DNA of 54,231 bases from a virus. The stretch lies in IMG/VR virus record IMGVR_UViG_3300010389_000019, positions 1 through 54,231 of that record. The stretch is one strand, 5' to 3'. Below are positions 22,074 to 50,812 of the stretch, piece after piece. Within the stretch, counting starts at the first letter, position 1. Each line of letters opens with the position of its first letter. The translations under genes were made by a program, and so were the position numbers. Under the pieces are notes generated by a model. The model was not told the DNA's origin and did no database searches. It was given only the letters and a program-made list of their open reading frames with translations.

Positions 22074-22081
22074 TATTTATG
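22074..22081 (-). promoter_or_regulatory. Late promoter CATAAATA
   Basis: Minus-strand CATAAATA 23 bases before the gp15 start; it contains the TAA stop of the gp14 gene. 7 of 8 match to T4 late -10. Confidence 0.55.
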
Positions 22082-24701: not shown

Positions 24702-24934
24702 TATTTTAAACCTTGTATAATTGTTTTAAGCAGATCTTTTATCTCACTTACATCATTTTTAAGAGTGTCAATCTCACTCTCCAGGTTACTCACCTTATCA
24801 TTTTCTTTTTCTTTTTGTCTTTTTAGACGCATGTAGTTTTCATACTCATATTTAGAGTTATTAACAATAGCATTACTCTCCTGATCTCTCAGGAGAGCAT
24901 GACTATCTTTGACCTTTACATAATCTCTCATCAT
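24701..24934 (-). CDS. Small coiled-coil protein, 77 aa
   Basis: Begins MMRDYVKVKDSHALLRDQ and continues as a long charged helix with a clear heptad pattern (VSNLESEIDTLKNDVSEIKDLLKTIIQGLK). This is a typical oligomerising coiled coil. Overlaps the 2902-aa gene stop by 4 bases (ATGA), so coupled to it. I recall similar proteins at this place in other marine T4-like phages. It may be an assembly factor for the neighbouring baseplate/fibre protein, which is inference. Confidence 0.78.
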   Translation of the reverse strand: MMRDYVKVKDSHALLRDQESNAIVNNSKYEYENYMRLKRQKEKENDKVSNLESEIDTLKNDVSEIKDLLKTIIQGLK

Positions 24935-27900: not shown

Positions 27901-30900
27901 GTTTGGAGCAGCTGCTCTAAAACTGATATATGGATTTGCATCCGTTGGTGATACACTGTAATCAACACTTGGGAAGTATCCTTTGATTGTCTCTCCAACA
28001 AGGAAAGATCCATCAGTCATTGCAACTTCAATCAATTTTGGTACTACAAATTGATTGACATCAACGCCATCAAAGAAGGCATACATCTGACTGTTTGGTT
28101 TGAGTCTCTTAGATACAAACTCTACATTTCTAGATCTGATGTATGGTATGATGTCACCTGCGCCCAATTCTGCAGTTTCTACCGAGATTGCGGATGCCTC
28201 TTTATCTGATGTGATAGACTTGACTTCATCACCACTCTTCTCCAAACCAATCCAATCTTTGGTTCCAGATACTGTGGTATCAGATCCGTAGAATGTTGGA
28301 TAGACTGAGTTTGATTCTGAGGCGTCAAGAACACCTGAGTTTTGTGTCCACAGGGTATTCCAAGAATTCCAAACAGTTGGTAAGAATCCAATTTGTGAAT
28401 CGTATTGCTCTACCTTAGCAACTGTCTTAATTGCTGAAGTATAATCGCCAGCAACTTGTAAGTTCTCTGGTTCAACGTTGACTTCATCAATCCAAACATC
28501 TGACGATGGTCTGAGGTCAATGGTTCCCTCCCAGAAGTTGACCAAATAAGGAGTCAGTTTTTCTGTTCTGGTAGCAAATGTCTGAGATAACCACTCTTCA
28601 GTAGTATAATCGAGAGTAATAACGTCTCCAGTCTTTCTGATGTTTGAACCCTTAAGGTCAGTGGCGTAATTTAAATCTGCATAAGGATCAGAAGACTGTC
28701 CAAGTCCAATAACTGAACTTGAACCCAGGACCATATCAACTGCAGTTGTATAGTGAGATGGTCTAATCTCCCCATTATTTGGATCGATAGAGTTCTTGAT
28801 TCCGTTTCTCAGATCTTGATTAATGCTGTTTTTGAAACTATCAACAATAAATCCAGACTTAAACTTGTTAACTCCATTATTGTCTGGAATTACAAGGTTT
28901 GAAGTCTCAGACTCAAGTGCTGTCAGTTTTGTAAACTTCTCAAGAGTCTTAACTCTCTTCTCAAGAGATGAGATATCACTCATAGTGAATCTCTTATATT
29001 TCTTCTGCTTAACAGAAGCATTTTCAACAGTGTAGAGGTATGGTGGCAAGAAGATTTCTGCTACCTCGATTGAATCGTCAATTGCAGCAGGAGGTGCAGG
29101 TTGTTCTGCTGGTGTTCCACTTACAACTTTAAATATGCCATTCTTATTGACATATACTCTGTCAATTCTTGGCAGATAGAAACTGTAGTCAAGTAAGATT
29201 GACTCGTCTGGTGCAAGAACATTCTTAGCACTATTTCCATCTTGAGTAAAACTTCTTCCAGCAAACTCAAACGGGGAAGTCGAACCCTCAGTCAGTGCAT
29301 ACGTTGAAACTCTTGGACGGATATCAATCATATCCGTGTTTCTTAGTTCCTTATAATATGGAATATCTTTTGAGTAGTCAAATGCACTATAAGAGTTGAC
29401 CGTTGTGATATCACCAGTGTCATTTACATCATAATAACCATACTGGAAGTAAACTTTAATCTTTCTCTTGGGCGCATCTTTACCAACAACACGTCTGATT
29501 CTTCCATAGTCATAATATGTGTCTCTCTGACCATTATCTAATTGATATGAATCGGTAATGTCCTTACCACCAGAGGTAAGATCTGCAACAATTGCCTCAA
29601 TTCCAGACTCTTCAAATCTTACTTTTTCACCAACTGTAAATGATTTCTTGTTGGCACGAATATACTCTACAGTGGTGTCATTTCTTCTTTCAACATATGT
29701 TGCCCTCGCATTACTGACAGTTCCAATGATTGTCTCACCTAAGATAAGATCTAACGTTGTCGCATTGGGTCCTGTAAGCGCCGAGAGCACCAGTCTAGGA
29801 GCACTAGGGTCAGTTGTATCGTATGACTCAAATACACCCTGTAGAGAGATGATATCAGGGACATTCAGAGATATCTCTTCGTCTTGAACACGAGTACCAT
29901 ATGGATAGTTTCCATATGCTAACCCATCATTTAAAGTTGTGGTTCCAATACCAGCAGATGACTCAGTTGATTTTGCAACGATGATGCTGCTTGCTCTCTT
30001 ATTTTCTTTTTGCTTCGATACAACATTGATTTTTCTCAGTGTTGTAACAAGACGAGCGGAACCATTTTTGCTGATATTGTTGATTGTTAGACGAGTATCG
30101 CCTGCACCAAAGGCAAACATATCTCTGGTCAATGGTTCAATGCTACCATCAGCAAATGTCAGAGAATATCTTTCCTCATCATATGGTAAGAAGGTCTCGT
30201 CGGTTCCAGCAGAAATTGTGTTTGTTGAGTTGTTGGTTACAGTGACATTATATTGCTTTCTGATTGTCAAGTTTGATGCAGACAGATTAACCTCTGAGAT
30301 GTTTCTTCTTGGCATCGCAGTAAACAGGGTATTATCCGCAGATACTGTTGCCTTTGTAGAGATGAGATCTAAGTTTGGAACAGTAATTGTTGAGCTTGGT
30401 AGGTTACCGTTGCAGATTCCAGTAACAGTTGCAACTGGAGCAACTGTGAGAACAGTAAATCCACCCTGAGTATTAATGGTTCTAATCTCAGCATATGATG
30501 GCAAGTAGACAACATTTGAATCTTTAATATCAAATGCTTCAGTAGAGTATGAGATAAACTCAACAACGTCTCCTGCTTCAAGTGCGGTCTCAAAGGAAAC
30601 TGTTTTTCCATCAACTGCAGTATAAAGTGTTGAATCAAACAGAATACCGTTTACATAGACATCTACAAATCCAATTGTGTAAACAACACTAAAGTTTTGT
30701 TGTCCAGAAATTGCAGTGAATTTGCTGCCAGTAAAGTATCCAGGTTCAAAAATAGTGGTTTCTACAAGGTCATTTGCAAACAACTCGTAGTTAATTTCAA
30801 ATGAGGTTCCACCTTCGATAATGGTGTAATCATTCTTATTATACTTTACACCATCTACAAACAATTGTAGAACTTTATTTGATGTCTCATATATGACATT

Positions 30901-33648: not shown

Positions 33649-35205
33649 CTAGAATTGCAAAATAACCTTGATATCTTCTTTTTGGTTAGTCGATCTTGTA
33701 ATAGATGGTCTATTATCGACGTAAATTATGTTTCCAGAATATTTCTCAACCTCAGGTTGTGCCACACCATTCACGAAAGACTGACCAAGATTGTAAGTCC
33801 TATTATTTATTACCGTAGTAATACCCGAAAACCCTGTGTCAATACGCAATCCTGTACTCACTTCGTCGTTGTAAATGAGAGTTGAACCGCCAACTCCAAC
33901 AGTGCCAAAGGCGTTCAATTGGAATCCATAATCTGGACTGGTGTTTTGAGTACCATCGGTATTAAAACCTGCCATACTCTTGTCTTGCCAATACTTAAGA
34001 ACACCAGTTACATTGTCATAAGACACGACACGACCAACAGCAGTTGACGCAACACCAACTGTTTGAGTAACAAAAGAGTCTGCAGTTGGGGCAAAGGTTG
34101 TTGATGCTGACCCAGTAAGTCTGAGAGCATAAACACCGCTTGCTTTATCTAGGTTCAAATTGGATGATGAGTCATATGCTTTGGGATTCTCAACAATACC
34201 AACTCTTGCAATTTCATTTCCAGTGATAAAGTCTGGATTTTCTAAGTCGTTCTCAATTCTAGAATAAATTAGAACGTTCTTAGCACCCAACTCACGATAA
34301 ATGTCGGCACCATGACCACCTTGGGGTGGAATGATGACATCAAATGTTGGAGATGTAGATCCAGTTGGAACACTGCCTCCAACAAGATCTATGGTGCCAT
34401 ATGTGTATCCATTACCACCTTTTGAAATATTGATTGACTCAACTTTGGAGTCATTACCGATGATAATAGTTGCTTCAGCACCTCTTCCATTTCCTTTGAT
34501 GGGAACTCTTGTGTAAGTTCTATTTGCAGTACCAAGACCAACTCCCCTGTTGGTAACTGTGACGATTTTTAACTGTCCACTGGTAGCAGCATTCTCTCTT
34601 ACTGCAGCATTGTCTGTGCTTGTATTCCAATCTGATGGAACTGGAATAAATTCAACTGAATCAAACTTTACAATATCTGCAGGGTTGATTGTATAGAGAT
34701 ATTTCCAAACATATCCATCACCACTGGTTCCTGCCGCTCTTGGTTCTAAGTCGGTAAAGTCTGGTTGATCTAGGGATGGTCTTCCAGATGTATTTTCAGG
34801 ATCAGTGCCGTTCTGTAAGCAAATATAAACTTTATAGTTGCTATTCATTACATAATAATTTGCATCATACAAATGTGTTGCATTTGATGGCAATGACAGA
34901 TTATCTCTAGAGATATCATGTCTGTACATATCATAGGTCGTGCCAGATGTCCAATCAATCTTCCTCACAACTCTTCTTACGTCATTAGACGTAATTTTTT
35001 TGAGAGAAATGATTGTATCCCAGATATCATCTTCATTCTGAAAACTATCCTTTGGGGCAGGAGGACTAGTATTCCAAGTAGAACTAATTTCAGTAGCGTT
35101 TGGTAGACCAATGAAGGAATAGTAAGCATTTGCCGTAGATCCTACGGCAGTGACAAAGTTCTTTGCACTTAATATTCTAAATTGATCAGTTATAATTGCT
35201 GACAT
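33649..35205 (-). CDS. 8: Baseplate wedge protein, T4 gp8-like
   Basis: 518 residues against 334 in T4. N-terminus IITDQFRILSAKNFVTAVG corresponds to IVTSKFRTEKMLNFYNSIG. DDIWDTIISLKKI then VVRKIDWTSG corresponds to TDMWTHMMGTVKV then VIPRRDWGD. SGDGYVWKYLYTINPADI matches EPGDGYVWEYLFEIPPDV, and the end GNIIYVDNRPSITRSTNQKEDIKVILQF-like region matches GEMIYMENRPPI of T4. gp8 is a dimeric wedge component binding gp6, gp7 and gp10. The extra length is in the C-terminal half and includes a SKGGNGYTYG unit. Late promoter at 35224-35232. Confidence 0.93.
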   Translation of the reverse strand: MSAIITDQFRILSAKNFVTAVGSTANAYYSFIGLPNATEISSTWNTSPPAPKDSFQNEDDIWDTIISLKKITSNDVRRVVRKIDWTSGTTYDMYRHDISRDNLSLPSNATHLYDANYYVMNSNYKVYICLQNGTDPENTSGRPSLDQPDFTDLEPRAAGTSGDGYVWKYLYTINPADIVKFDSVEFIPVPSDWNTSTDNAAVRENAATSGQLKIVTVTNRGVGLGTANRTYTRVPIKGNGRGAEATIIIGNDSKVESINISKGGNGYTYGTIDLVGGSVPTGSTSPTFDVIIPPQGGHGADIYRELGAKNVLIYSRIENDLENPDFITGNEIARVGIVENPKAYDSSSNLNLDKASGVYALRLTGSASTTFAPTADSFVTQTVGVASTAVGRVVSYDNVTGVLKYWQDKSMAGFNTDGTQNTSPDYGFQLNAFGTVGVGGSTLIYNDEVSTGLRIDTGFSGITTVINNRTYNLGQSFVNGVAQPEVEKYSGNIIYVDNRPSITRSTNQKEDIKVILQF

Positions 35206-35260: not shown

Positions 35261-38200
35261 TTAGACCAGGTAGTTTCTATTCTCTAGAGGAAGAACCCTT
35301 CTGACGTATGCAGAGGTTTTGATTCCTACGACACCATCATCTCCATAGAAGTTAAATTCACGTCCAGATGATCTACCAGTCACTCCCAGTTTGCCCCAAC
35401 TGTAAACTCCAAGATTGTCATCAAAACTACCAGAGATGTTGCTCTCACTGATCTTACAATAAACTCTTCTGACAGTTGTTGTGATACCTGCAACCACGAC
35501 ATCCTCAGCACCAGTTCTAACTGCTTGATAAACGCCATCACTGTTGTGAGTTACAATTCCAATTACAGAGTTGTCAATTCTCAGAGGATTGTAGTTGGAT
35601 GTAGTAACAGCAACACCAGTTCCATAGACAGTAAAGTAGTCTCCACCAACAATTTGACTGATAGTGATTGCAGTTCCAACAATCGTTGTATCTCTTAGAT
35701 ATGAATCAAATGGAATGTGAATGTCAAATGCAATTTCACTAGGATTGACATTGGATGTTTGGATTCCGACAATGGTTCCAAAATCACCAGTGTAACTGAC
35801 ATTATCAATGGTCTCAATAATTGCTTGTGGATGAGCAATTAATACATTTGGTGCTTGCGTATATCCAGTTCCTGCATTTGTAATAGAGATGGATCCAACG
35901 GTTGCTCCAGACAAGGTTGCAGTTGCAGTTGCAGTTGTTCCAACTCCAACGGGACTTTCAAAGGTCACTACAGGTGCCTGAGTATATCCAACACCCGCAT
36001 TTGTGATTGTTACCCCAGTTACATTACCACCAGCATTGATGGTAGCAGTTGCTGTAGCAGACTCTTGTGTATCCAGAGTCATTACCTGAATGGTAGTTCT
36101 GGTCTTTGGTGGAGATGGATTTTCGTTTAGTGAGTCAAAGAATGTTCTTGCGTTCAAGACATAAATTGATTGATCGTTAGGGGATACTGGTTGAATGACA
36201 TTTGTTGCTGGGAAGATCGTTGCTTCGTATTCCTCGCGTGATTTATCAACGCTTTGTCCATTGATAGTGGTATCTTCTCTTTGCTTACACCAGATAACTG
36301 GTCTAAGTTCTCCAGTTGTAATAATGCCAGGACCACTATATGTGTTTGTGGTCACAACATCAACAGAGTCAATTGAGAATACTGTTCTTGAATCTTCTCT
36401 TTCCAGTGGATTGTCGCTGGTTAGTGTTAATTTGTCTCCAATCTTAACAGTTTCAAGGATATCATTTTCAATAACATCAACAGATTCATTTCCGCGATAG
36501 AAGATAATTGTGCAGAGATCACCTGTTTGTGGTGGTTCCGTAAACACGATTGTACTTCCACCATTAAACTCATATGCCTCACCTGGAACTTGTAAAATAT
36601 TATCAATAAAGACTAATAAAACTTGATCAAGATCAACATTATTGACACCAATAATAGATTGTCTTATACCATCAATTGCGAGGGGGAATTCTCTTTCAAA
36701 TCCATTAAAGAGGTTGTCAATCTTGTCAAAGACTAAGAAGTTGCCAAGAGTCCATCCACTAAACTGTTGAGAGTATGTGTCAGATACAGTAACCTCAAAC
36801 GGTTCAAATGTCTTACTGGTGTCAGTTGGAATACCAATGGTTCCACCAATTGCAACTGTTAGACGATCTCCAAAGGTGTATCCGAGACCACTGTTAATAA
36901 TAATGCTGTCGATAACACTGGATCCTTGTCCAACAACAATACTTGCAGTTGCTCCAGTTCCAATACCAGTAGTTCCACTCACATAATCCAATGCAAGATT
37001 CTCATATGAATATGGAGCATCAAATACAACCTCAGGGGGATTTGATGCTGTATAACCAGATCCTGGATTTGTAATTTGTACACTAACTACATTGCCATTC
37101 AAGACTGATGCAATACCAACTGGAGTCAGAGTTGAGAGACCCACAGTAGACGTTGCAAGAGAAACATTTACGGTTTGTAGACCAGATCTGTATCCAGATC
37201 CAGTAAGACCAATTGCAATTGATTCAATAGTTCCCGCGATTGAGACTACTGCAGTACCACCCGCTGCAACTAATGGTTGATATCCATTACCATAAGTGGT
37301 TCCTATAGATACAATCTGTCCTCCGATTGGAGCACCATTAAAGAAGATTGATGTGACACCAACAGTCTCCTCCATATACTGATTTTGTATAATTGGTTGA
37401 GCACTAAATCTTGTTGGTGACTGGAATATACCTTCTAAAAGAACGATGCCATTATTTGTAGAGATGCCAGTAAGAGATGATGCATTTCCTGTTGACAGAG
37501 TAAACTCTGTACCAACTCCAGTAAATTCTGGAGTAATATCATTCAAGATGTAATTGTCATTGTACGTGTCAACGTTTCCATTTGGAGTTCCACCCTTCAT
37601 AAAGGATCTTCCACTAAATGTTGATCTTGTAGTGATACCAACCCAATATCTGTCATCTGGATCATTTGATGATGTTCCAATTGGATCTGGACCATAAGGA
37701 GCAGTAGCAAAGTTAACAGTATTGCCAACAATGTTGTAGTTACCAACAACCTTTTCAATAGCAGCATTGCCCGTATGGACACCAATATTGGTTCCCATCC
37801 ATCCTCTTCTTACTCCAACTTTGTTGGTAACATCATTAACAGTATCGATGAACATTATCTCTTCATCAATTTGTACCAGATCTCCAGACTTATAGTCCTC
37901 AACACTAGTAAAGTCTAGGATATCATCAAATGTGCTTGCAGTCGTAGAGATAGTGGTGGAAGGAGTTGTCTTTACAATAGGAGATTGGATAATATTATCA
38001 ATCGACAAAACAACTCTTTGATTCTGTTTTGTTGATGCTAGTCTGTGTGATACACCAATACCAGTTGATGTAAAATCAAGAGGTCTTGGTGGGATTGCAA
38101 GAGCATCGGATGCTGCTGCAGCAACCTTTACGGTCACATCGTCAATCTTAATAATGTAGAGATTGGTTGGGAGGATATCAGTCGATCCAATTCCAGCAAT

Positions 38201-41200
38201 GTTAACTGTAGCAATTCCAATTGGCGCAAAACCACCAATGCTTGGTGATGAGTAAGTAACTTCCTCACCAGTCACAAAGAAGTGCTCTGCAAGATTGATT
38301 GAGTTTGCGACCACATTTACAACCCCATTATCAGTTGTAGATCCTGTTCTTGGATCAGTGGTAGGTGCAAAATATCTATGGAAAATGTCCTTGGTTTTAT
38401 GCTTCAGTTCAAATGCGCGAGTAATGTCAAGTTCTGTACCAATGTAGTCTCCAAATCCACTATTAATTGATCCATTGCTGAATCCAATACCAGTATCATT
38501 ATTAAAGTTATCAACTAAACGCATTGAATGCTGATAAACTTTGACATCTACGTCAATGTTTGCATTTGGTGTATAAAGAATCTTGACAGTATCATTTGTG
38601 CAAGCAATACCAACGGTTCCAAGTCCAGATGATGTCAGAACATTGCCAAACTCAGAGATTGACTGGTCTAGATCATCCTGAACCGCCATCAACTCAAAAA
38701 TTTCTTGCTCATCATTAGTTGAGTCTGTGACGCCAACAAGCAGATATCCTCCATTAAAGATGTCTGATGACCATCCTGCAATTCTGGTTGCAACTGGAGC
38801 GGTTGATGATGCGATACTGGTTCTAATTGTTTCAACTGTATTGGTGTTGAATGTCATAGATCCAATACCAGTTGCCTCAGTAATACCAAGACCAACAGTC
38901 AGTGCGTTAACAGTTCCAGCAACACCCGCATGTGGATAGAAGTTGAGAATCATCCTCTCACTGTTGAATCTGATGTTTTTGAAACCATAGGTATCAAAAT
39001 CATTACCACTGTTTGCATTCTGTTGGAATCTAAACAGTGTTGATGCAGTTTTTGCTGCATCTGGGATGAGTTTTGTGTGCGTAGTTAAACCACCTGCGCC
39101 GTTGTATGGAACAATGATTCCAGTATTTACATAATTTGAACCACCATCAATGCTGTATCTTAGACTAATGCCATCTGTTACTTCTGGTGCCTCGCCACCA
39201 TTACTGTCATTACCAACAATCGCGTAAACATTAACATCATCAAATGTTCTTGCATCAATGGGTCCAAGTGTCAGTTGTCTTTGTCCATCTCCAGTAAATC
39301 GAGTATGGTCTCCAATATTAAATCCACCAAAAGGACCAGATCCAGATCCACCAGTTGATGTGATGATACCAGAGAAGTTGGCATATCTTGAGGTGCTAAT
39401 AGTTGCTACAACTTTATTTGGTATGGTTGCATCATAAGTTCCAAGTCCCACTGTAGATGTGGCAACCAGATTCAAATCGGTTAAATTGCCGTACTCAGAC
39501 ATTCCAACGTTTCTAGCATTATCTCTCAGTAGTGTAATCTCATCAAATTGATGGAAGTTATCTGTAGATGATGCAGATACAATAACCTTTGCTCCACTGT
39601 ATGTCTTAGCAATGCTTACAACAGGGAAAGTTGCAATACCAGTAGTGATTGCAGTTTGTGAGGTATAGATGTCAGCAACAGATCCTACGATAGTGCTACC
39701 AATACCTGCCAAAACGTCATTGTTAGCATATGATGCCAAACTAACATCATAGTTATTAACAGCAGTCTTAACTGGATAGAATCTAAGTACTCCTTCTCTG
39801 TTAGTGATTGTAAAGTCAAATGATCCTAGGTCAGATAAAGTCTCAACTCTTCCATACTGATTCAAGAATCCCTGAGACTCATTTTGAAGGACAGAGACCA
39901 TCATCAATTGTCTTTCGTTTGTAAATCGTCTATCTTTAACGTATGTAATGTACTTTCTTGATCTATCAGTAAGTGGATAGGTGTCTACGTCAGAGAATGG
40001 ATCTACTCTTGCGTCACTCTTGAATTGATCACCAATATCATCAATACTGAGAACTCTATTGCCAATAGACTCAAAGTAATTTTGAATCAGTTGACTATTA
40101 AAGATAATCTCATCAGATGAGATAGTTCCATTGATAATAAGATTATTTTCTGATGCAAGATCCCAGTCAAAATAACAGTTGGTGTCAACCTCTCTGATGA
40201 TGTCAACAACTGATGTTACTGTTCCACCATCTTGGTCAGTTGTAATACCAGTATTAGTATTGTCTTTGCTGAACATCAACAAGTTACTAAACTTCTTCCA
40301 TCCAGCAGGGTGATTGAGACTTTGTACAGGTTCATCCCACTTTTCAAGTGACACTTCGGACTTTAACTCATAAGAGAAGTACTGATAATAGTCACTATCC
40401 TCAACTCTTGAGAGATCGTTGTTTAAGAATCCAGTAAATCTCTTCCAACCTTGCTCAACCTTAGATGAAGATCCAAGATTATATGAACTCTCAAATGCAA
40501 TATTATTTGAAAGGATTGCACGAGTTCCCGATGTTTGCCCTTCTATGTCTTCTCCAACAACAAATGATCCAGTTGGATTAATTACGTTTAGATGACTTGC
40601 AACAGGATTCCATCTGTCAATAATACCAGTTGCTCCACTATCAGACTTAATGGTTTCTCCAATCAAGAATTGATTTTGCTTCAATGTAACATTAAATATT
40701 GGCATAGACTTTTGAGTGACTATCCTTGCAGAGGAGTTGATGGGATCAAATGTACCAACAGTATCTCCAGTCTTCAGATAATCGCCAAGATTATATTTGA
40801 CCTCAGCATTTACGCCACCATACTTTGGATCGATGGCAGTAACAGTAAAGAATGCATAGTTATAATCTTTGGAGTTAAATCCTTTGACATTTGTCCCGAG
40901 TACTGTAGAACCTTCAACAAATATCTTATCTCCAACATTGATTGGGAATCCTCCAACGGTGGCAAATGAACCAACCAATACTGCAGTTACTTCGCTATTC
41001 GATGAGTTATATTTGATTGTATTGATTCCAACTCCATTTGAGTTATTTGTTGGAATAATAATTGGTTCTACATCATAAAGGTCTCTAGTATTCTCTTCAA
41101 TTCTAACCTCAGTATCTCCCAATTTATATGAGAGTCTAACATCAGTGAGTTGATTCTTGGTGATACTATCAAGAACAATCAAGTCCGCTGGATTTGTATA

Positions 41201-44200
41201 TCCCTCTCCAGCACTTGAGATGCCAATTCTACCAAACGATGAGTATCTACCAACGTCAAGGATGTTGGAGATTCTTACAGTTGGTCTTACGCTATTATCA
41301 GATGGATAATCAAATCCAATGTCTTGGATATCTACAGTCTTGAGTTTACCAATACTGGTGCTAACACCATTAAGGATTGCTTCTGTTCCTGCAGCAGATA
41401 CAATATTGCTAATTTCAGGGAGAGACATATAACCACTGCCAGAGGTTACTCTAATTGATGATATTCCACCAATTGCTGTAACAGACGTTGTATCATAACT
41501 CATCACAGACTGATCTGGAGTTTGTGATGCAAATCTTGGTCTACTTCCAATTGTGTAAGTGAATGTAGTTGCTCCAATTGAAGTTACAACATGATCACCA
41601 GTATATGGAGTTGTTACTCTTAAGAGAGTATTTGGATTTGTAATCTTATCATCGTCTTGGATGATGGTATTTTTGTTTGGACCACTACCACCAGGAACTG
41701 GAGTCAGAGCATAGAATAATTGTCCTGGAGTGGATGATGTTGTCTCAAATTCTAATTTTGCATTTGCGTCAATACCAATTACACCAGTTTTAGTCACATT
41801 AAATGCACCAAGATCTTCAGATGTCACATATGGATTTGTGAGAGTTTTATCTGTATACAGATCAAAATTGAATGATGACTCAACTGCACCAGAGGGTGAA
41901 GTATATGCTAAAGATGAGTCAGATAGGTCAAATATAACTTTTTGATTTGGGCAATAGTCAATCTCTGGATTTACTGGCGCAATTGTTCCTCCAAATGTTG
42001 CGGTAAAATTAATAAAGATAGGCAGAGATTTTGTTGCATCAAAGTAAGTATTAGATAATCTAATATTATTATTGTCAAATACAACAACATAATAGATCTG
42101 ATCATCAACTAATTGACCTGTTGTTCCAGTGAAGATGACTTTTTGCCCATTGTAGAACTTATGTCTATCAATTCTAATAGTATCTCTAGCAACAACAACA
42201 TCACCCACAGTAAATGTTCTTGGATTGATGAGCGTTCTACGATTGTAGTCGTTATATACAACCTTAAATGTCTGAGCAACCCCGACGTTAATGTCAATAT
42301 TGATATTATCTCTCAGTGATAAACCGTGTGTAGATGCTGTAGATACGGTAACGTTATTTTTTTCAATCTGTCCAATAATGACATCAGATCTGACTGTCTT
42401 AAAACTGTGATATACACCAGTGCCAATGCCAATAAACTGTAATATACCTTTATCCAGATTTAAGTCTGATGCAGTTTGAGCAAAAGATACAATGTTATTA
42501 TCAACCCTCTTAACAAAGAGTTCTTGATTCTGAGTTAAAGAAGTGTCTGCTGCAGTATCTCTCTTTACAACAAGTGCTGTACCACCGTTTGAGTTGTAAA
42601 GTACTTTATCGCCAGTTGCCAATCCATGATTCTCAATATAGAGACTTCTTGTTGGAATCTCTTGAGTTACGACACCATTTAAGTATCCAGTGACTCCTGC
42701 ACCAACAAGGGAAGATGTGTCAAAGTCAACTGTGATAGATGTAGAACCTACAGAGAGGACTTTAGCATTTTTAACAGCAAATCCTGGAGATGTTGGATTT
42801 GTGATTGAGACATATCCACCACCAATAAACTTAGAGATATTTTGTGGTGTCTGGAAGTACAGAATTGTAGTGTTTCCAGTATCAAAACTAACGGGTGACT
42901 GATGATTAACTTGGTCTAGGAATAGAGTTGAGGTAATGCCCACACCCCAAGTTGCACCAAGACCAACAGTAATCTCAGGTTCAAAGTAAAGTTGTCTATC
43001 AAGACGAGATGAATCTGACTTCTTGTAGTTTGTAGAGACTTGAACTCTTCTTGATTTTTGTGCAATTGGTGATGCAACAGTATGTGCAACACCAGCAGTT
43101 GAGTTTTGTGCTCTTAGAACACGAATTCTGGACTTGGAGCGATCAACATTGAGAACTTTTACTTGTTCATCGTCAACGGTCAGAATATCATTTTCAAGAA
43201 TAAATGGATGCTGAGGGATGCTTGCAAGAGAGAAATGTGTAACAAAACCTGTGACATTCGCAGTAGAGATGTCTGCAGTCAGTGATAGTGGTGCATCTGG
43301 TAATCTGATTTGTAGATTTTGTCTTAAATCAGTTCTAAATGTTGATAATCCAGTAACTGAAACAAAGTCAAGATTGACCAAATTGTGTGGTTCTGGAGCA
43401 ACACCAACAAATCTTCCAGTGTTGTCTAAAGGTACAAATTCAATACTTTCAACATACGTTGTTGAGTTGGCAATACTAGTGATAGTCTTACCTACAATTC
43501 TTGATATCTTACCAAAAGCACCTCTACCAGTTCCTCCAGTAAAATTGATACTATCGCCTACTTTAAATCCATCTCCAGAATTGTAGATATCAATATTATC
43601 CAATCCACCTGGTTGAGAATATTTTACAACCGATGTTTGTTTTCTTACACTGTTTGGATTAAACAAATATTGATATGAGGCAAAGTCTGATTCAAGTTTG
43701 TATGGTTCAGTATTTCTAAACCAACCACTTGAGTTAATATTGATAGTATTTTGATTTGATGTATTAAGGAAATTAAAATCAATTGGTGTGGACTTAAATG
43801 ACTGTCCTACAACATATGGAAATACTGGAGTCTTAAAGTTTTTAAATGGACCAGACTGAGCATAGGTGTCAGAGACTGTCATGAAGTACGCATAGACACC
43901 ATTTGGAAACTCTGGAGTTACGCAGAATCTACCATTATGTTCATCCAAGTCTCCTGAGTTGTCAAAGATATAATCCTCAACAAACATTCCAAATGGGAAC
44001 TTAGATACTGCTGGTCTTCCAGTCTTTAAGTCTTGTGTATATCCAGAGACCATTCTTCTAACAACTCCGCCAGATGGAGTGTCATATCCATATGGTCCAT
44101 AGATTGGATTGCCATCATATGCCCAACCAATTATAGGAGAGTGATTTGTGCTATCAATTTCTTTACCTGTATTATCAAATGTAATATCTGGTAAAAATGT

Positions 44201-47200
44201 CTCAATACCATTTACAAACCTAGTTCCATAAACTTGTTTTCTAAGTTGTCTTGGTGCATAAAGGTGCGTGTATTCAAGGGATCCAGACGTTTGGTTATAC
44301 AGGACTCCATCATCTGCAGATATCTTCTCTCTTTCTATGAGTCTCTGAACTTCATTCAAGGTCCAAGACTTAATATTTGCCTCAAATTTTGCACCAAGTC
44401 CAGCAGCAACAACTCTTACAGTTGTATTTGATGATTTGTATCCACGTCCTGGACTAATAACAATAATCTCACTCAGGACTCCATTCTTAACAATTGGAGT
44501 AAAAATCGCTCCGAGACCATCGCCAGAGATTACAAGGTTGGGTGGAGCGTTATATCCAGAACCAGAGTTCTTGATTACTACGTCTTGAATGCCACCTGTT
44601 GTTTGGTCAATGATTGGAATAAGTTCTGCATTCTTGCCACTGTTCAAAGTAAACAATGGTTGTCTATTGTAATTTACAATTGAATCAGAACCATAGTTTG
44701 TACCATTGTTTGAAAGACCAACGGTTTCAATACTTCCTCTGAAGATTGGTTGTATTGACGCATTAAAATCTGAACCAAGATAAACAAGTTCGCTTAAGAC
44801 AAAATATGAAAGATATACAATGTCATTAGCAAAAACTGGAACTAAAATCTCAACAAATGATTGATTAGAAGCATCATAATCTTCAACTGGCAATTTGATA
44901 CCATTGAGATACACATCAATGAGACTGTACTCAGTTTGATGTGGGAAGGTAAATTTAGTTTGGCCATCCTGTGCAGTGAAAGTTGCTTCCTTTCTAATGA
45001 CATCAGGATAACCAATCAGTTCAACTGTATCTCCAGCAGTTGCTCCTTGGTCTAAGATAACCGCAGTTCCAGTGTCAGACTCATAATCTCTTGCTGGTAG
45101 TTTTACACCATTTAACAGGACATCTAAGTTTCCTGGAGAATATATGAATGGGAAGTTAGTTTGTCCAGCACCCGCTGTAACCTCTGTATATTGCGTTCTA
45201 ACAGTGGAGGCATAACTTACCATCTCCACTATCTCTGTGCCGTTTGCAGGGGATTGTAGGACTATCTGAGTGCCTGATGTGGCATCATAGTCAACACTAT
45301 TCAACCTGACACCATCCATGAAGACATCAAGCAGTTGTGGATTGCTTGGTCTTACAGGATATCCAAAAGTAAAATCAGTTTGTCCTGCAGTTGCAATCTC
45401 AGTAACAATTCCCGAACGAATAGTTCTAGAGTCAACGATAATACTCTCAGTCGTGGTGACGGTTGTAAGTCCGACAATACCTTTGATTTTTACTTTAATT
45501 GGTTCATAGTTAAATGAGTGAGTTCCACTACCCCGTGATCTGAGGTCTACGTATTCTCTTGCATTGTAATACTGTGCTCTGGTAGTTGATCCAATACCAA
45601 CTTGAGACAGATAGAACTGGTTATTATCATATGCAGTGACATAGTAAGACTGTGCTGTGGAGAGACCCAAAATCTCATTTCCACTGGTGTTATATGTGAT
45701 TATATCCCCACTCTTATATCCATGATTGCGGATATTGATCAAGTTGCTAGCGGTGTTAATACCAGTTGGTGCAACTCGTCTCAATTTATTTTCATAATTT
45801 TTACCACTATCAATTACTCTAATAGAACCTACTTTCTTTCTATAGTTAACAGTTCTGAGAGTATGTCCACCAATACCAAATGATGTCAGGTCAATAACAT
45901 TTTTACCAGTTACCGCGTCAACTTGTGTCTTATAGAGTTTGACTCTGTAAGCATCAACAACACCAACATAATACTCAGAGTTACTCTCCAAACCGCCAAT
46001 TGGAGTTAGTCCATTTGTTTCGTAGAATACGTGCTCACCATCTCTAAATTTGTGTGGTGATCCAATTGCAATAGTATTGAGGGGTAGGTCAACTTGGTTT
46101 GCTGATGCAATCGAGTTAAATGTAACCTCGTGGATAAAGTTTGCAAGAGTTGCCTCTGCCTTTGCTCCAGTTCCATTACCACCAGTGATTGTTACAACTG
46201 GAACTTCCAAATAATCGGAACCTGGATCAATAATTTCAATTCTTTCAAGTCCACCTTTAACGGACACATTACCAGCTGCTGCACTTCCAACACTATCAGT
46301 AATACTTAGAACTGGTGGGTTAATGATATCATATCCATCACCTTCAGCAATAACTTCAACATCATTGATACTACCAAAGTTGACAATATCTTCGCTCTTG
46401 TAACTTCCAACCTCAACACCATTGACAAACATACCAACAGGTGTTGTTTTAATATCAACAATCGTGCCATCATCAATTGGGTCGGAGATTTTTCTCAATA
46501 AACCCTGTGGTTGCAAGGACTTTCCTTTATATCCAAACTTAACTAACTTTCCGTTAGTAATCGTGCCAGTTACAGTAAAGAAGTTGTTTGTTGAGATATT
46601 TGGTCTACTTGCAGCAAGTTTAATTACACTGTTGCTGATGACTTTGACAAAATATACTCCTTCAGATAAGGATAGTCCGCTACCAATCAGGTTTACGGCA
46701 TCTCCAGTTATAAATGGGTGTGAACCAATGTTTAACTCCTCACCAGAGAAAGTTCCAGAGAAAGTAACTGTGTAATTTTCTGGAATAAGAGTCTGATTTG
46801 GATAATAAGGAATTGAGTTTGATGCAACATAAACGTCATCATTATTCAAATATGTATTTTGAACGTTAGTAATAAAATTGGAGATATATGGGTAAGATGA
46901 TGAATTACCCTTTGTCAGACTCCTGGTTATAGTATAAAACTTGGTTGGATCTAATGATGAACCAGAAACTACAAAGGTATCTGGTGTTTTTACTTGTTGA
47001 ACTACAAAAGTTGTGCTAGTCGATGTATTATCTGTAAGAGTTACAGTGTCTCCAAGTACAATGCCATTATCATCATATGTTTTTACATCGTAAGTTAATG
47101 CTGCTGATTGAGCAGTAATACTTTCAACTGTAAATGTTGTTTTATGATTATATTGCCAAATTGTTGTCTTTTTGCTTTGATCAGTATCACCTAAAGTCTT

Positions 47201-48475
47201 GATTTGGATTTTGTCTCCCTTATCAACATAATAGGTATCTTGGGGGATTACTAAATCTTGTAGAACAGCGCCTATACGGACCTGTACGGGGTCTACCTGG
47301 GCAGAAGAGGTATATCCATAGGCAACAAAGTTTTGACGCAGTTCCTGGTCATCAGACATTGCCTGAGTTACACCAGTAACATCAAAAAATTGGTTAGATG
47401 ACTTTGAAAGGTATTGTAATGTCTGGGAAGTTCCGTTAGGGAGAGATGCAACCAACTCACCAGTTGCCGCAAATCCAACAGTTGAGTCAACATCAAGAAC
47501 AGTTGCTCCAATGGAGACACTATTAAGCAGTTCAGTCTTAGGATTTACAACAAAAGTACCTTTGATAGAACCACCTGCTACATCGATATCCTTATCATAG
47601 TCTGAGTCTAGACTAATCGTGTAATATGTCTTTTCTCCACGTATAATCTTCTCAACTTTACTAATTGAACCACTCGCTCTCTTATTATATTGATCAGCAT
47701 CCTGGAAGAGAGTTTTATTGAACAAAAGTTCAGGATCACCATCAACTGCTTCAACAACTAAATTGTTTACAAGTTGATAACGAGCATCTGATGGAATGAA
47801 TAGATAATCACTAGGTCTGATTAACTCAACATCTTTGCCATAAAGAGCGCGGAACAGAATTTCATAGGATTGCTCCGTGCCTTTGGAGACATAAAAACTA
47901 TCTGCTTCTTTAATGAAGAGTTTTTGGTCCAAATCAGAATATAACTTTCTATCCTCAAATCCTGGAAGTATTTGCTTCTTGAGTTTTTTGAGAAACTCTT
48001 GTAAGAATAGAATACTCAAGTTTTTAATTGTTGATCCACTTGCATGTTCTGCAGTATCCGTGCTAGAAAAAACAAGTTCATCTGGTTGATTGGGTGCCCT
48101 ATAAGAAGTGATGCCACTAAATCCTCTTACGCAACCAGTAAAGGAATTTGTAGTAATACCAGTGTATGTGATGATCTCAGAGTCAATCTGTATGACCCCG
48201 TATTGACTTGGGAATCCCTCTGTGGAGTCAGTCCTGATAGTTGTATCGAAAAACGAAATAGAACTGCCCAGAGACGCTTGTGTGACTAGGTTAGTAAGAT
48301 TGTCAACCTTTACATATTGGTCAATATTATTAACAATGTTCGCTGGAAGACTTTGGGAGTCTTGTGACTTGTAATAACTTTCTAGAAACTCTGAAGCAAG
48401 AGGATAATTGTCTCTTACCCAGGAAGGCAGCTGGCTCTCGACGACCGTGCTGATTTTGACCCTTTGATTGACCAT
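35261..48475 (-). CDS. 7: Gigantic gp7-like baseplate wedge protein with YHYH domain, 4404 aa
   Basis: One uninterrupted frame of 13.2 kb. It lies between gp6 and gp8, the place of T4 gene 7 (1032 aa). The N-terminal 260 residues (SWVRDNYPLASEFLESYYKS, LSILFLQEFLKKLKKQILPG, SKGTEQSYEILFRALYG) are of the cyanophage gp7 type. Residues about 1430-1560 form a YHYH-type domain (SPIIGWAYDGNPIYGPYGYD, LDEHNGRFCVTPEFPNGVY). Three NG-module copies lie near 1020-1215, many GxGYxxxP units throughout, and EIxxY-RG-GT-H units near 95-165 and 3560. The C-terminus again has NG-type and GYTQAP units and ends VLPLENRNYLV. It probably spans the baseplate wedge and reaches outward. The number of added domains is extraordinary even for this phage group. 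Confidence 0.9.
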   Translation of the reverse strand: MVNQRVKISTVVESQLPSWVRDNYPLASEFLESYYKSQDSQSLPANIVNNIDQYVKVDNLTNLVTQASLGSSISFFDTTIRTDSTEGFPSQYGVIQIDSEIITYTGITTNSFTGCVRGFSGITSYRAPNQPDELVFSSTDTAEHASGSTIKNLSILFLQEFLKKLKKQILPGFEDRKLYSDLDQKLFIKEADSFYVSKGTEQSYEILFRALYGKDVELIRPSDYLFIPSDARYQLVNNLVVEAVDGDPELLFNKTLFQDADQYNKRASGSISKVEKIIRGEKTYYTISLDSDYDKDIDVAGGSIKGTFVVNPKTELLNSVSIGATVLDVDSTVGFAATGELVASLPNGTSQTLQYLSKSSNQFFDVTGVTQAMSDDQELRQNFVAYGYTSSAQVDPVQVRIGAVLQDLVIPQDTYYVDKGDKIQIKTLGDTDQSKKTTIWQYNHKTTFTVESITAQSAALTYDVKTYDDNGIVLGDTVTLTDNTSTSTTFVVQQVKTPDTFVVSGSSLDPTKFYTITRSLTKGNSSSYPYISNFITNVQNTYLNNDDVYVASNSIPYYPNQTLIPENYTVTFSGTFSGEELNIGSHPFITGDAVNLIGSGLSLSEGVYFVKVISNSVIKLAASRPNISTNNFFTVTGTITNGKLVKFGYKGKSLQPQGLLRKISDPIDDGTIVDIKTTPVGMFVNGVEVGSYKSEDIVNFGSINDVEVIAEGDGYDIINPPVLSITDSVGSAAAGNVSVKGGLERIEIIDPGSDYLEVPVVTITGGNGTGAKAEATLANFIHEVTFNSIASANQVDLPLNTIAIGSPHKFRDGEHVFYETNGLTPIGGLESNSEYYVGVVDAYRVKLYKTQVDAVTGKNVIDLTSFGIGGHTLRTVNYRKKVGSIRVIDSGKNYENKLRRVAPTGINTASNLINIRNHGYKSGDIITYNTSGNEILGLSTAQSYYVTAYDNNQFYLSQVGIGSTTRAQYYNAREYVDLRSRGSGTHSFNYEPIKVKIKGIVGLTTVTTTESIIVDSRTIRSGIVTEIATAGQTDFTFGYPVRPSNPQLLDVFMDGVRLNSVDYDATSGTQIVLQSPANGTEIVEMVSYASTVRTQYTEVTAGAGQTNFPFIYSPGNLDVLLNGVKLPARDYESDTGTAVILDQGATAGDTVELIGYPDVIRKEATFTAQDGQTKFTFPHQTEYSLIDVYLNGIKLPVEDYDASNQSFVEILVPVFANDIVYLSYFVLSELVYLGSDFNASIQPIFRGSIETVGLSNNGTNYGSDSIVNYNRQPLFTLNSGKNAELIPIIDQTTGGIQDVVIKNSGSGYNAPPNLVISGDGLGAIFTPIVKNGVLSEIIVISPGRGYKSSNTTVRVVAAGLGAKFEANIKSWTLNEVQRLIEREKISADDGVLYNQTSGSLEYTHLYAPRQLRKQVYGTRFVNGIETFLPDITFDNTGKEIDSTNHSPIIGWAYDGNPIYGPYGYDTPSGGVVRRMVSGYTQDLKTGRPAVSKFPFGMFVEDYIFDNSGDLDEHNGRFCVTPEFPNGVYAYFMTVSDTYAQSGPFKNFKTPVFPYVVGQSFKSTPIDFNFLNTSNQNTININSSGWFRNTEPYKLESDFASYQYLFNPNSVRKQTSVVKYSQPGGLDNIDIYNSGDGFKVGDSINFTGGTGRGAFGKISRIVGKTITSIANSTTYVESIEFVPLDNTGRFVGVAPEPHNLVNLDFVSVTGLSTFRTDLRQNLQIRLPDAPLSLTADISTANVTGFVTHFSLASIPQHPFILENDILTVDDEQVKVLNVDRSKSRIRVLRAQNSTAGVAHTVASPIAQKSRRVQVSTNYKKSDSSRLDRQLYFEPEITVGLGATWGVGITSTLFLDQVNHQSPVSFDTGNTTILYFQTPQNISKFIGGGYVSITNPTSPGFAVKNAKVLSVGSTSITVDFDTSSLVGAGVTGYLNGVVTQEIPTRSLYIENHGLATGDKVLYNSNGGTALVVKRDTAADTSLTQNQELFVKRVDNNIVSFAQTASDLNLDKGILQFIGIGTGVYHSFKTVRSDVIIGQIEKNNVTVSTASTHGLSLRDNINIDINVGVAQTFKVVYNDYNRRTLINPRTFTVGDVVVARDTIRIDRHKFYNGQKVIFTGTTGQLVDDQIYYVVVFDNNNIRLSNTYFDATKSLPIFINFTATFGGTIAPVNPEIDYCPNQKVIFDLSDSSLAYTSPSGAVESSFNFDLYTDKTLTNPYVTSEDLGAFNVTKTGVIGIDANAKLEFETTSSTPGQLFYALTPVPGGSGPNKNTIIQDDDKITNPNTLLRVTTPYTGDHVVTSIGATTFTYTIGSRPRFASQTPDQSVMSYDTTSVTAIGGISSIRVTSGSGYMSLPEISNIVSAAGTEAILNGVSTSIGKLKTVDIQDIGFDYPSDNSVRPTVRISNILDVGRYSSFGRIGISSAGEGYTNPADLIVLDSITKNQLTDVRLSYKLGDTEVRIEENTRDLYDVEPIIIPTNNSNGVGINTIKYNSSNSEVTAVLVGSFATVGGFPINVGDKIFVEGSTVLGTNVKGFNSKDYNYAFFTVTAIDPKYGGVNAEVKYNLGDYLKTGDTVGTFDPINSSARIVTQKSMPIFNVTLKQNQFLIGETIKSDSGATGIIDRWNPVASHLNVINPTGSFVVGEDIEGQTSGTRAILSNNIAFESSYNLGSSSKVEQGWKRFTGFLNNDLSRVEDSDYYQYFSYELKSEVSLEKWDEPVQSLNHPAGWKKFSNLLMFSKDNTNTGITTDQDGGTVTSVVDIIREVDTNCYFDWDLASENNLIINGTISSDEIIFNSQLIQNYFESIGNRVLSIDDIGDQFKSDARVDPFSDVDTYPLTDRSRKYITYVKDRRFTNERQLMMVSVLQNESQGFLNQYGRVETLSDLGSFDFTITNREGVLRFYPVKTAVNNYDVSLASYANNDVLAGIGSTIVGSVADIYTSQTAITTGIATFPVVSIAKTYSGAKVIVSASSTDNFHQFDEITLLRDNARNVGMSEYGNLTDLNLVATSTVGLGTYDATIPNKVVATISTSRYANFSGIITSTGGSGSGPFGGFNIGDHTRFTGDGQRQLTLGPIDARTFDDVNVYAIVGNDSNGGEAPEVTDGISLRYSIDGGSNYVNTGIIVPYNGAGGLTTHTKLIPDAAKTASTLFRFQQNANSGNDFDTYGFKNIRFNSERMILNFYPHAGVAGTVNALTVGLGITEATGIGSMTFNTNTVETIRTSIASSTAPVATRIAGWSSDIFNGGYLLVGVTDSTNDEQEIFELMAVQDDLDQSISEFGNVLTSSGLGTVGIACTNDTVKILYTPNANIDVDVKVYQHSMRLVDNFNNDTGIGFSNGSINSGFGDYIGTELDITRAFELKHKTKDIFHRYFAPTTDPRTGSTTDNGVVNVVANSINLAEHFFVTGEEVTYSSPSIGGFAPIGIATVNIAGIGSTDILPTNLYIIKIDDVTVKVAAAASDALAIPPRPLDFTSTGIGVSHRLASTKQNQRVVLSIDNIIQSPIVKTTPSTTISTTASTFDDILDFTSVEDYKSGDLVQIDEEIMFIDTVNDVTNKVGVRRGWMGTNIGVHTGNAAIEKVVGNYNIVGNTVNFATAPYGPDPIGTSSNDPDDRYWVGITTRSTFSGRSFMKGGTPNGNVDTYNDNYILNDITPEFTGVGTEFTLSTGNASSLTGISTNNGIVLLEGIFQSPTRFSAQPIIQNQYMEETVGVTSIFFNGAPIGGQIVSIGTTYGNGYQPLVAAGGTAVVSIAGTIESIAIGLTGSGYRSGLQTVNVSLATSTVGLSTLTPVGIASVLNGNVVSVQITNPGSGYTASNPPEVVFDAPYSYENLALDYVSGTTGIGTGATASIVVGQGSSVIDSIIINSGLGYTFGDRLTVAIGGTIGIPTDTSKTFEPFEVTVSDTYSQQFSGWTLGNFLVFDKIDNLFNGFEREFPLAIDGIRQSIIGVNNVDLDQVLLVFIDNILQVPGEAYEFNGGSTIVFTEPPQTGDLCTIIFYRGNESVDVIENDILETVKIGDKLTLTSDNPLEREDSRTVFSIDSVDVVTTNTYSGPGIITTGELRPVIWCKQREDTTINGQSVDKSREEYEATIFPATNVIQPVSPNDQSIYVLNARTFFDSLNENPSPPKTRTTIQVMTLDTQESATATATINAGGNVTGVTITNAGVGYTQAPVVTFESPVGVGTTATATATLSGATVGSISITNAGTGYTQAPNVLIAHPQAIIETIDNVSYTGDFGTIVGIQTSNVNPSEIAFDIHIPFDSYLRDTTIVGTAITISQIVGGDYFTVYGTGVAVTTSNYNPLRIDNSVIGIVTHNSDGVYQAVRTGAEDVVVAGITTTVRRVYCKISESNISGSFDDNLGVYSWGKLGVTGRSSGREFNFYGDDGVVGIKTSAYVRRVLPLENRNYLV

Positions 48476-48484
48476 GATTTATTT

Positions 48485-50395
48485 TTAGTTTCTGATAAGT
48501 CTGCCAGTTTTTCCACAACTTGCTGTTGCAACAAAGTTTGATCCAGAAATATCTGCACCAGACGCTATGTTGTCAGCTAACATATTGATTGTGCTATTAT
48601 TAATATCTAGTTGCAGATATAACTCCTCTTTTCCGATGACATCATTGGAAGAAGGCTCAACCGAGACCTCAATAATTGGTCCTTCAGCGTTAGTTTTTGA
48701 TGTTGATTGAATCTTGATTGGGTTAAGTTTAACTTCACCCTTAACATAATCAACAGTTCCAATATTTTTAAGCAAAATAACTGCTTCAGTGGTGGTATCA
48801 ACCTTAAACAAGAAGATTGAACCAGTCTTTAAATCTGCATTTGGCATATCTGAGAAATAAACCGTATCTGAGATACCAGTTACAGTAAATCCCGAAGTTT
48901 TGATGTTATATCCAGTTGGATCAACACAGAATGAGTTACCAAAGCAAATCTCATACTCAGCAAAAGACCTCAGCACGGGTGCTAAGTCTCTTCTCATTTC
49001 AATAGATGTAATATTTGAGGTAATTGAGTCATCCGAGTCATCAACGACCTTCGTAAACTTACTATATCTAAATTTGGCACCATATTTATTCAATTCTGTA
49101 GAATCTGCATAATCCTCTATATTTTTTGTAATTGCTGCCTTTACAAATGCTGCATTTGGTGCAAGAGATGGATCATAATATGCAGTTGTATTAAATTCAA
49201 CGTAAGTATACTTCGTATCAAGGATAATTGGACGAATTCCAGAGATTTGATACTTCCTAAGTTGATCAATTAGGTTTTCTTTGACCGAGTTAGACAAATA
49301 TTGACCATTAACTGGTTTAATTGATATAAAAATACGTCCATATTGTGGTGGATTTAGTACTTCACCACCAAAAGCAGAGATTGATTCAACTTCTCCATAG
49401 ATTTGGGGGATAATTGCCTCATAATCCATCGCTGTAACTGCTCTGTCGGCCGCGGCGTAACTTTTTGGAGCAAATTTTCTGATGGAATCAACCGATTCGA
49501 TCTCTTGTCCACCCGAAGATGGAGAATTCGTGGTCAATGCAGAGATGTCAGACGTTATAACAGTTGCATTATTGTCTAAAATACGTCCAGCATAACTGAA
49601 AGATGAGACATCATTGCCGTTTTCGCCATTTGAGACAGTGTAACTGACGGTAATGTAGTTGTTATTATCTAATTTTCTACCAAAAACTCCATCTCCAAAG
49701 AAAAGTTCGTATCTTTCGCCTGCAATTTCTTGTAAGAAGTAAACATTTGACGTTGAAGTGACCTGAAACAGGTCATTTTTCTGAGTGTACTTGACAAATG
49801 AGTTACTTTGAGACGTTGGATAAACTTTTACGTCAAGATTTGACGTATCAATGTTGGGATTTCCAAGTTCAAACTTTTGATTTGGGATATTTACGTCAAC
49901 AGTAAACGCTTCAGTAACATAATTTCCCTCATAAATCGTAATATTGTCGAAAGTTGCAACTCCATTTACCACTGGGACGGTAATATCTGCTGGAATTGTG
50001 AATACAAACGACTCATTTCCAAATTTTTGCGATGAAGTTGCAACAACACCCGCTTTTAGAGTCAAAGTAAGGGGTGAAGATGGCAATGCGGTAACATCAA
50101 CAAAGAAAGATATATTTGCTTTTGCAGATCTTCGTGATCTTGGTAGATATCCAATGTTTTTTGCAAGAGAAACTACGTTTTCTCTCAACGTAGCACTATC
50201 AATGAACACCTCATTGCTGAGCATGTTCGCATTAAATGACGTTAGATACGTATTATACGCAAGCGTGTCGATAATGACCGAGAGATTTGATCCCTCAAAG
50301 TCATAATCGGTAAAATTTGAGTTAGATTTGATATAATCCTTAATGGATTGTTTTATTTGATCAAAATCTAAGTTAGCGAACTTAACTAGAGGCAT
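48485..50395 (-). CDS. 6: Baseplate wedge protein, T4 gp6-like
   Basis: 636 residues (T4 gp6 is 660). LDFDQIKQSIKDYIKS, DYDFEGSNLSVIIDTLAYNTY and SATLRENVVSLAKNIGYLP correspond to T4 FAEIKQNLIEWL, DYDFEGSRLNVLCDLLAYNT and TANLRSSVVQAAQDNGYLP. The middle has the gpJ/gp6 baseplate_J-like fold (AKSYAAADRAVTAMDYEAII, GRIFISIKPVNG). gp6 dimers form the inner baseplate ring that drives sheath contraction. It follows gp25 by 6 bases. No insertion relative to T4. Confidence 0.93.
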   Translation of the reverse strand: MPLVKFANLDFDQIKQSIKDYIKSNSNFTDYDFEGSNLSVIIDTLAYNTYLTSFNANMLSNEVFIDSATLRENVVSLAKNIGYLPRSRRSAKANISFFVDVTALPSSPLTLTLKAGVVATSSQKFGNESFVFTIPADITVPVVNGVATFDNITIYEGNYVTEAFTVDVNIPNQKFELGNPNIDTSNLDVKVYPTSQSNSFVKYTQKNDLFQVTSTSNVYFLQEIAGERYELFFGDGVFGRKLDNNNYITVSYTVSNGENGNDVSSFSYAGRILDNNATVITSDISALTTNSPSSGGQEIESVDSIRKFAPKSYAAADRAVTAMDYEAIIPQIYGEVESISAFGGEVLNPPQYGRIFISIKPVNGQYLSNSVKENLIDQLRKYQISGIRPIILDTKYTYVEFNTTAYYDPSLAPNAAFVKAAITKNIEDYADSTELNKYGAKFRYSKFTKVVDDSDDSITSNITSIEMRRDLAPVLRSFAEYEICFGNSFCVDPTGYNIKTSGFTVTGISDTVYFSDMPNADLKTGSIFLFKVDTTTEAVILLKNIGTVDYVKGEVKLNPIKIQSTSKTNAEGPIIEVSVEPSSNDVIGKEELYLQLDINNSTINMLADNIASGADISGSNFVATASCGKTGRLIRN

Positions 50396-50401: not shown

Positions 50402-50812
50402 CTACCTTATTTTGGTTAATGGAAATGACAGAGATTGTGCTGGTGCATCAATACCAACAATTTCGTAATTGACTGTCATATCAAAGGCATTATCATCAGG
50501 TCTTGGATCAACCGTGACATCAATGAGTTTTACTCTTGGTTCATACGTGTTGATTGTATTCTCAGCCGATGTTTTAATTTGTGTTGCGGAAATAACGTCA
50601 ATTTGTTCAAAAAGTGACTCATAGATTCCAGATCCAAGTTCAGGATTGAAGAATCTTTCACCTGGAGTCGTTAAAACCAAATTTTTAATCGACTGAGCAA
50701 TCGCATTCTCATTTTTCAATGGAATGAGGTCGTTCGTCAGCGGATTCTCCTGAAAGGACATACTAATGTCCTTAAATCCGATAGATGTACGTTGGGCGAC
50801 CTCAACAGGCAT
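50402..50812 (-). CDS. 25: Baseplate wedge protein, T4 gp25-like
   Basis: 136 residues (T4 gp25 is 132). GFKDISMSFQENPLTNDLIP, then LVLTTPGERFFNPELGSGI carries the GPW/gp25 family core TxPGERxxxPxxGxG. ISATQIKTSAENTINTYEPRVKL and NAFDMTVNYEI complete the fold. gp25 starts sheath polymerisation by clamping gp6 in the wedge core; the family is shared with type VI secretion TssE. Late promoter at 50841-50849. Confidence 0.94.
   Translation of the reverse strand: MPVEVAQRTSIGFKDISMSFQENPLTNDLIPLKNENAIAQSIKNLVLTTPGERFFNPELGSGIYESLFEQIDVISATQIKTSAENTINTYEPRVKLIDVTVDPRPDDNAFDMTVNYEIVGIDAPAQSLSFPLTKIR

Follow-up and report, generated by a model that had tools for sequence, protein, structure and literature searches.

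We found that the giant minus-strand open reading frame in the analysed virus DNA (a 54,231-base record that is a fragment contig, hereafter the window) encodes a real, complete and conserved gp7 of an already known giant kind. This protein would be fixed in the baseplate wedge by an N-terminal anchor and would continue as a long modular peripheral arm, an explanation to which, taken as a whole, we assign a probability of about 0.75. The frame runs from an ATG at position 48475 to position 35261 and comprises 4404 codons plus a stop, with zero internal stops and zero N, and the predicted protein has a mass of 476 kDa per copy and a pI of 4.7. An earlier note on this DNA had described a single uninterrupted frame of 4404 residues without giving its strand, a description that was borne out by a full-length copy in another contig (see below). 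The results of use are the inverted placement of the gp7 core, the lack of the YHYH site, an anatomy of three blocks with a natural cut point and the link to protein S-PM2d081.

Overlapping frames aside, all large genes of the window lie on the minus strand, as do gp25, gp6, gp8, the VrlC-type gene and the segments of the giant gene listed below with their window positions. The giant gene (35261–48475) is part of the gene order gp25–gp6–giant gp7–gp8, which includes gp25 (136 aa, 50402–50812, PHROG 261), gp6 (636 aa, 48485–50395, T4 gp6 E = 1.8e-40, PHROG 219) and gp8 (518 aa, 33649–35205, T4 gp8 E = 1.9e-10, PHROG 438). Beyond gp8, a VrlC-type protein of 2902 aa (24931–33639; DUF4815, PF16075) is found in place of T4 gp9–gp12, together with gp13 (23440–24279, matched by T4 gp13), gp14 (22077–23438), gp15 (21005–22051) and the small terminase subunit (20577–21005). 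The cyanophage S-SM2 has the same gene order, and its equivalent of 24931–33639 is annotated VrlC. When compared directly with the window proteins, T4 gp9, gp10, gp11, gp12 and wac gave zero matches; as the contig is a fragment, their homologues may lie elsewhere. A megablast search with the 3' end of the giant gene retrieved no close isolate, and NCBIfam gave no matches. Genes for a glucose-6-phosphate dehydrogenase, a 6-phosphogluconate dehydrogenase and a plastoquinol terminal oxidase near the left end mark the window as belonging to a marine T4-like cyanophage. These zwf, gnd and PTOX-type genes (1518–4497) are adjacent, with head-to-tail overlaps, and form a compact host-derived metabolic cassette. 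Moreover, a 2668-residue protein (11407–19413) that matches many families of tail fibres and baseplate wedges (22 PHROGs) represents a second giant structural protein.

On the basis of its slot between gp6 and gp8 and of a conserved core, sequence comparison identifies the giant protein as the gp7 of a T4-like cyanophage, in line with the gp7-like baseplate protein proposed in the earlier note. The core (LPGFE...FYxSKGTxxSfeiLFraLYG, residues 149–219, 47819–48031) is homologous to residues 708–761 of T4 gp7. A profile built from 28 N-terminal regions and searched against the PDB retrieved T4-type gp7 sequences (E = 1.8e-5 and 2.6e-5, at T4 708–761) and nothing else up to an E value of 10. In the opposite direction, T4 gp7 found the giant protein among 19 window proteins (residues 176–218, 35% over 48, E = 2.8e-4), and T4 gp6, gp8 and gp13 each matched the expected neighbour. 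The giant protein matches PHROG 2885 ('baseplate wedge subunit') with 3174 bits, the same family was matched in reverse by T4 gp7 (E = 1.3e-4), and PHROG 26741 matched both proteins. The Pfam family Baseplate_wedge was present in 24 of the 28 members of the N-terminal alignment; in the window protein itself PF23786 reached 20.7 bits, which is below the curated cut-off of 27. Since the core lies at 708–761 in T4 gp7 (confirmed to have 1032 residues) yet at the N-terminus of the window protein, its placement is inverted relative to T4, and what had been called a gp7-type N-terminus has its T4 counterpart in the C-terminal third of gp7 and not at the N-terminus. T4 gp7 (PDB 5IV5, 5HX2; a T4-type relative in 9F4A) shares the gene order and the KGT core, but most of its additional domains precede the core, with domains V and VI following it, whereas the extra mass of the window protein is C-terminal. 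A low-confidence structure model placed helices at residues 8–39, 51–55, 154–169 and 184–212, with the core-bundle helices at the expected places and a pLDDT of about 50–60. In a Foldseek search against the PDB, the model of residues 1–600 (mean pLDDT 65, pTM 0.32) gave no gp7 match; for this model and that of residues 1236–1680 (mean pLDDT 64, pTM 0.47) all matches were long, poorly superposed or insignificant, so that no conclusion on the fold was drawn from either.

Two alternatives concern the identity and the integrity of the frame. It has been reported that gp7 is absent from cyanomyophages, with the VrlC protein as its replacement (PMC7029224), and on that account the giant protein would be an unrelated structural component of the periphery. 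Homology to T4 gp7 can indeed be detected over a short stretch only, about 45 residues (176–219), and the Pfam domains Gp7_helical, Gp7_5th and Gp7_6th, which lie at 643–689, 766–861 and 920–1012 in T4 gp7, were not found in the window protein. However, the core was recovered by four routes (the PDB profile search, the comparison with T4 gp7, the reciprocal PHROG matches and Pfam Baseplate_wedge), the gene sits between gp6 and gp8, and VrlC follows gp8, where T4 has gp9–gp12. We consider this account very improbable and correct the statement that cyanophages have no gp7. Nothing was seen in favour of an assembly chimera or a frameshift artefact fusing several genes, and the probability of one is negligible. 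The same frame recurs at full length in an independent contig, L005 (IMGVR_UViG_3300005512_000231; 4410 aa, 90.6% identity), partial copies are present in L004, L157 and L158, in two contigs besides L005 the C-terminal part stays open up to an identical endpoint (82–84% identity), and isolates encode proteins of similar length; the assembly join inside the frame that the earlier note had raised was thus rejected. The window gene and its L005 counterpart differ with a dN of 0.054 and a dS of 0.59 (dN/dS = 0.093), and dN/dS is 0.03–0.19 in every full stretch of 200 residues through to the end of the protein. The identity and dN/dS of the L005 frame exclude a chance open frame, and the whole 4404-residue chain is selected as a protein, with purifying selection throughout. 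A dead or untranslated 3' part was also considered and rejected, because both the frame and the dN/dS constraint are kept to the same end in independent contigs.

The size of the protein, which had been regarded as exceptional, is ordinary in Kyanoviridae-type cyanophages and hence not new. According to annotated coordinates, the gene directly after gp6 encodes between 1937 and 8573 residues in 12 cyanophage isolates: S-CREM2 (1937), S-SSM7 (3007), S-PM2d (3048), ACG-2014j (3494), S-CAM9 (3884), Bellamy (4067), S-SM2 (4156), ACG-2014f (4225), P-HM1 (4446), P-SSM2 (5195), Syn33 (6376) and P-RSM6 (8573). S-SSM7 encodes a second protein of 3001 residues further along from its 3007-residue gp7. 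Many of the isolate homologues are already annotated as 'gp7' or 'baseplate wedge initiator', and PHROG 2885 is a family of 4179 positions, most of which the window protein matches in four stretches. The Kyanoviridae giants (S-SM2 gp7, Bellamy gene 111 and P-SSM2 gp7, with the lengths given above) share the slot, the three conserved blocks and the size class of the window protein and are homologous to it over nearly all of their length, with about 26–43% identity depending on the segment; relative to them, the window lineage adds an LNG triplet (1007–1235) and a Reelin-like domain (3016–3189). The figure of about 20,000 extra residues per baseplate is arithmetically correct, given one copy per wedge, and a large peripheral structure not present in T4 is plausible.

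In the coverage across 14 proteins, three blocks stood out as being kept even in distantly related gp7s of cyanophages (residues 1–365, about 1250–1650 and about 2300–2800). Block 1 (1–365, 47381–48475), as delimited in a 28-sequence alignment, contains the gp7 core and a small inserted beta module (about 66–138). Within the same N-terminal core domain, P-RSM6 (L063, NC_020855) and Syn33 (L057, NC_015285) carry approximately 500 residues of tandem GxGY modules. Block 2 (1238–1680, 43436–44764; 32-sequence alignment) comprises two GxGY modules followed by half a YHYH domain and is present in both S-CREM2 gp7 and S-PM2d081. Block 3 (2300–2822, 40010–41578; conservation map) contains an HPAG box at residue 2722, and as the 1937-residue gp7 of S-CREM2 ends 29 residues past this box, the common gp7 is taken to end near there. 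Other segments have been gained or lost between lineages. The LNG triplet (44771–45457) is a lineage-specific insertion found in L004 and L005 and not in L006, L007, L002 or L003, and the jelly-roll insertion at 3016–3189 (38909–39430) resembles a Reelin subrepeat (Pfam PF21471, 29.8 bits, cut-off 27; PDB reelin, E = 3.9e-4). This domain is absent from close relatives, and its match to Reelin subrepeat B is weak and implies no ligand function; its dS against L005 (0.24) is the minimum of the gene (0.59 overall), which is compatible with a recent exchange. Relatives of the Reelin-like domain were observed at different positions in other cyanophage baseplate proteins. By sequence, 21 small beta modules of four kinds were recognisable (8 GxGY, 4 LNG, 3 VDST and 6 HGF), covering about 900 residues, so that the modules reported earlier are present and their number, given as dozens, was somewhat high. 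The GxGY and LNG types are shared virion building blocks: the former is present in gp14 as well, the latter in the VrlC-type protein and in the tail-fibre gene at 8383–11358. Six LNG modules like those inserted in gp7 were counted in the VrlC-type protein (24931–33639), which suggests that modules move between the baseplate genes of a single phage.

The C-terminal arm (residues 2839–4404, 35261–39961) is lineage-specific and is encoded as a separate gene in some relatives. Its boundary is a linker (2818–2838, 39962–40024) that serves as a natural cut point: in L010, L012 and L013 the frame terminates at the position matching residue 2818, and the remainder starts with an ATG of its own. S-SSM7 is also split, though not at exactly the same residue. 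In a tree of the N-terminal and YHYH regions, L010, L012 and L013 fall into a single clade that is nested within relatives having an undivided frame, with S-SSM7 separate, and by this phylogeny at least two split or fusion changes are indicated, both forced by well-supported branches. The S-SSM7 gene located between the two gp7-related proteins (L061:25042–26064) encodes a connector whose N-terminus resembles T4 gp10 (E = 5e-8) and gp9 (E = 7e-6). The arm ends in a conserved C-terminal domain (3786–4402, 35270–37120; 15-sequence alignment), which is also part of the second S-SSM7 protein. The profile of this domain matched only the GxGY-like modules of a tailspike depolymerase in the PDB; as a single small module is concerned, a depolymerase activity of the domain was not supported.

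The internal YHYH domain described in the earlier note proved to be a partial one. The Pfam match (PF14240, residues 1437–1539, 43859–44167) scores 87 bits against a curated cut-off of 25, but covers positions 84–187 of the 193-position profile, and thus the second half only, without the name-giving motif. Cellular YHYH proteins (PF14240, e.g. of Bacteroidetes) are alike in the half containing HSPIIGWAYDGNPIYGPYG...GDLDEHNGRFCVTPE...YAYF, with about 45–60% identity, and at full length carry a GH...YH[HY]H half ahead of the HSPIIG segment, which the phage domain is without. In the alignment with these proteins the window protein has Q and YTHL at the corresponding places, histidines are lacking there in more distant gp7s, and the motif Y[HY][HY]H was found in 0 of 60 gp7-type frames bearing the HSPIIG signature. 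We also considered YAYF (1528–1531) as a mutated version of the YHYH motif and rejected it, as the cellular homologues likewise have YAYF and the true motif belongs to the missing first half. Relatives of the YHYH segment were observed in 387 stretches of cellular genomes (L064–L143), among them many Bacteroidetes proteins in which the YH[HY]H half is complete. A few of these stretches (L064, L067) resemble phage contigs that were binned with bacterial or archaeal genomes.

Two further alternatives concern what the chain does once it has been made. Metal binding or an enzymatic action on the host surface had been suggested for the YHYH region, an idea already contained in the proposal that YHYH domains in general are zinc-dependent hydrolases with a site of three histidines and an aspartate (PMC7824862). 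A virion-borne metal-dependent hydrolase would be in line with the Pfam score above the cut-off, with the retention of the block across cyanophage gp7s and with H1445 and D1454 of HSPIIGWAYDG, which are invariant in 32 gp7 sequences. Against this, only half of the domain is present, GH and YH[HY]H are replaced and the motif is missing from every frame inspected, and the weak model of the region finds no enzyme. Most of the predicted zinc ligands, and with them the His3-Asp site, are missing, so that the hydrolase proposal is not transferable to the window protein; such an activity appears quite improbable, H1445 and D1454 are probably kept for the fold, and the lack of the proposed metal site corrects the earlier note. 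The other alternative holds that the C-terminal arm is released by proteolysis or acts mainly in assembly, with only the conserved part kept in the virion. The existence of the arm as a gene of its own in L010, L012, L013 and, in part, S-SSM7 indicates that in some phages it functions while not covalently linked, so that attachment is not needed; yet selection on the arm is equally strong (dN/dS 0.04–0.15) and, where the arm has its own gene, that gene stays immediately downstream. We regard release of the arm as unlikely.

In the preferred reading, a gp7 with a wedge anchor and a peripheral arm, residues 1 to about 220 would pair with two gp6 chains, as in T4 gp7 and XM1 gp17, and the remainder would leave the core C-terminally as a long modular arm. 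The shared blocks (the half YHYH block, 1238–1680, and the HPAG block, 2300–2820) would build the common part of the baseplate periphery, and the lineage modules (the LNG triplet, the Reelin-like jelly roll and the C-terminal domain) would decorate it, probably positioning or forming fibre and host-surface contacts. The arm would thereby form the periphery and carry or position the host-contacting parts in place of T4 gp9–gp12; it is the pairing with gp6, the peripheral location and the contact with the host that we infer. The 242-residue gp7 orthologue of XM1, gp17, has exactly two binding sites for the tail spikes, a core loop (80–106) and the C-terminus (201–242) (PMC10457771), and these are the two spots at which cyanophage gp7s carry extra sequence, namely the beta module in the core (66–138; enlarged in Syn33 and P-RSM6 by roughly 500 residues) and the giant C-terminal arm. 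XM1 gp17, P2 gpI and TssG are the expected equivalents in a (gp6)2–gp7-type wedge; they are of minimal size, and sequence homology to them was not detected in the PDB search. Tentatively, and as a possibility that we rate below even odds, the arm and the VrlC-type protein may together replace the T4 gp9–gp12 periphery as a covalently tethered, module-swapping platform. If so, host contact would evolve by insertion and exchange of beta modules inside gp7 and not only by changes of the tail fibres.

Among the viruses of marine Synechococcus and Prochlorococcus, cyanomyoviruses are a major group, yet in the literature found their baseplate periphery is structurally undescribed, and that literature contained no cryo-EM of a baseplate from a marine cyanomyovirus. 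The anatomy given here (three blocks, the HPAG end, the cut point at 2818–2838 and the mobile modules) is usable for what would be the largest part of this periphery. Two sets of published data are relevant to the preferred reading. In purified virions of S-CREM2, the 1937-aa gp7 was represented by 91 unique peptides (PMC10665884). In a chemostat coevolution of S-PM2d with Synechococcus, 18 genes had acquired mutations by day 39, one of them that of S-PM2d081, which was named only as a large hypothetical protein (PMC9910659); gp8, tail fibres and other proteins were altered as well, so that gp7 was not singled out. S-PM2d081 (3048 aa) occupies the same slot after gp6, matches the core (E = 1.8e-100) and the YHYH block (E = 4.3e-92) and is without the C-terminal arm domain. 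These sequence matches identify this coevolution-mutated protein, annotated as hypothetical, as a cyanophage gp7 homologue.
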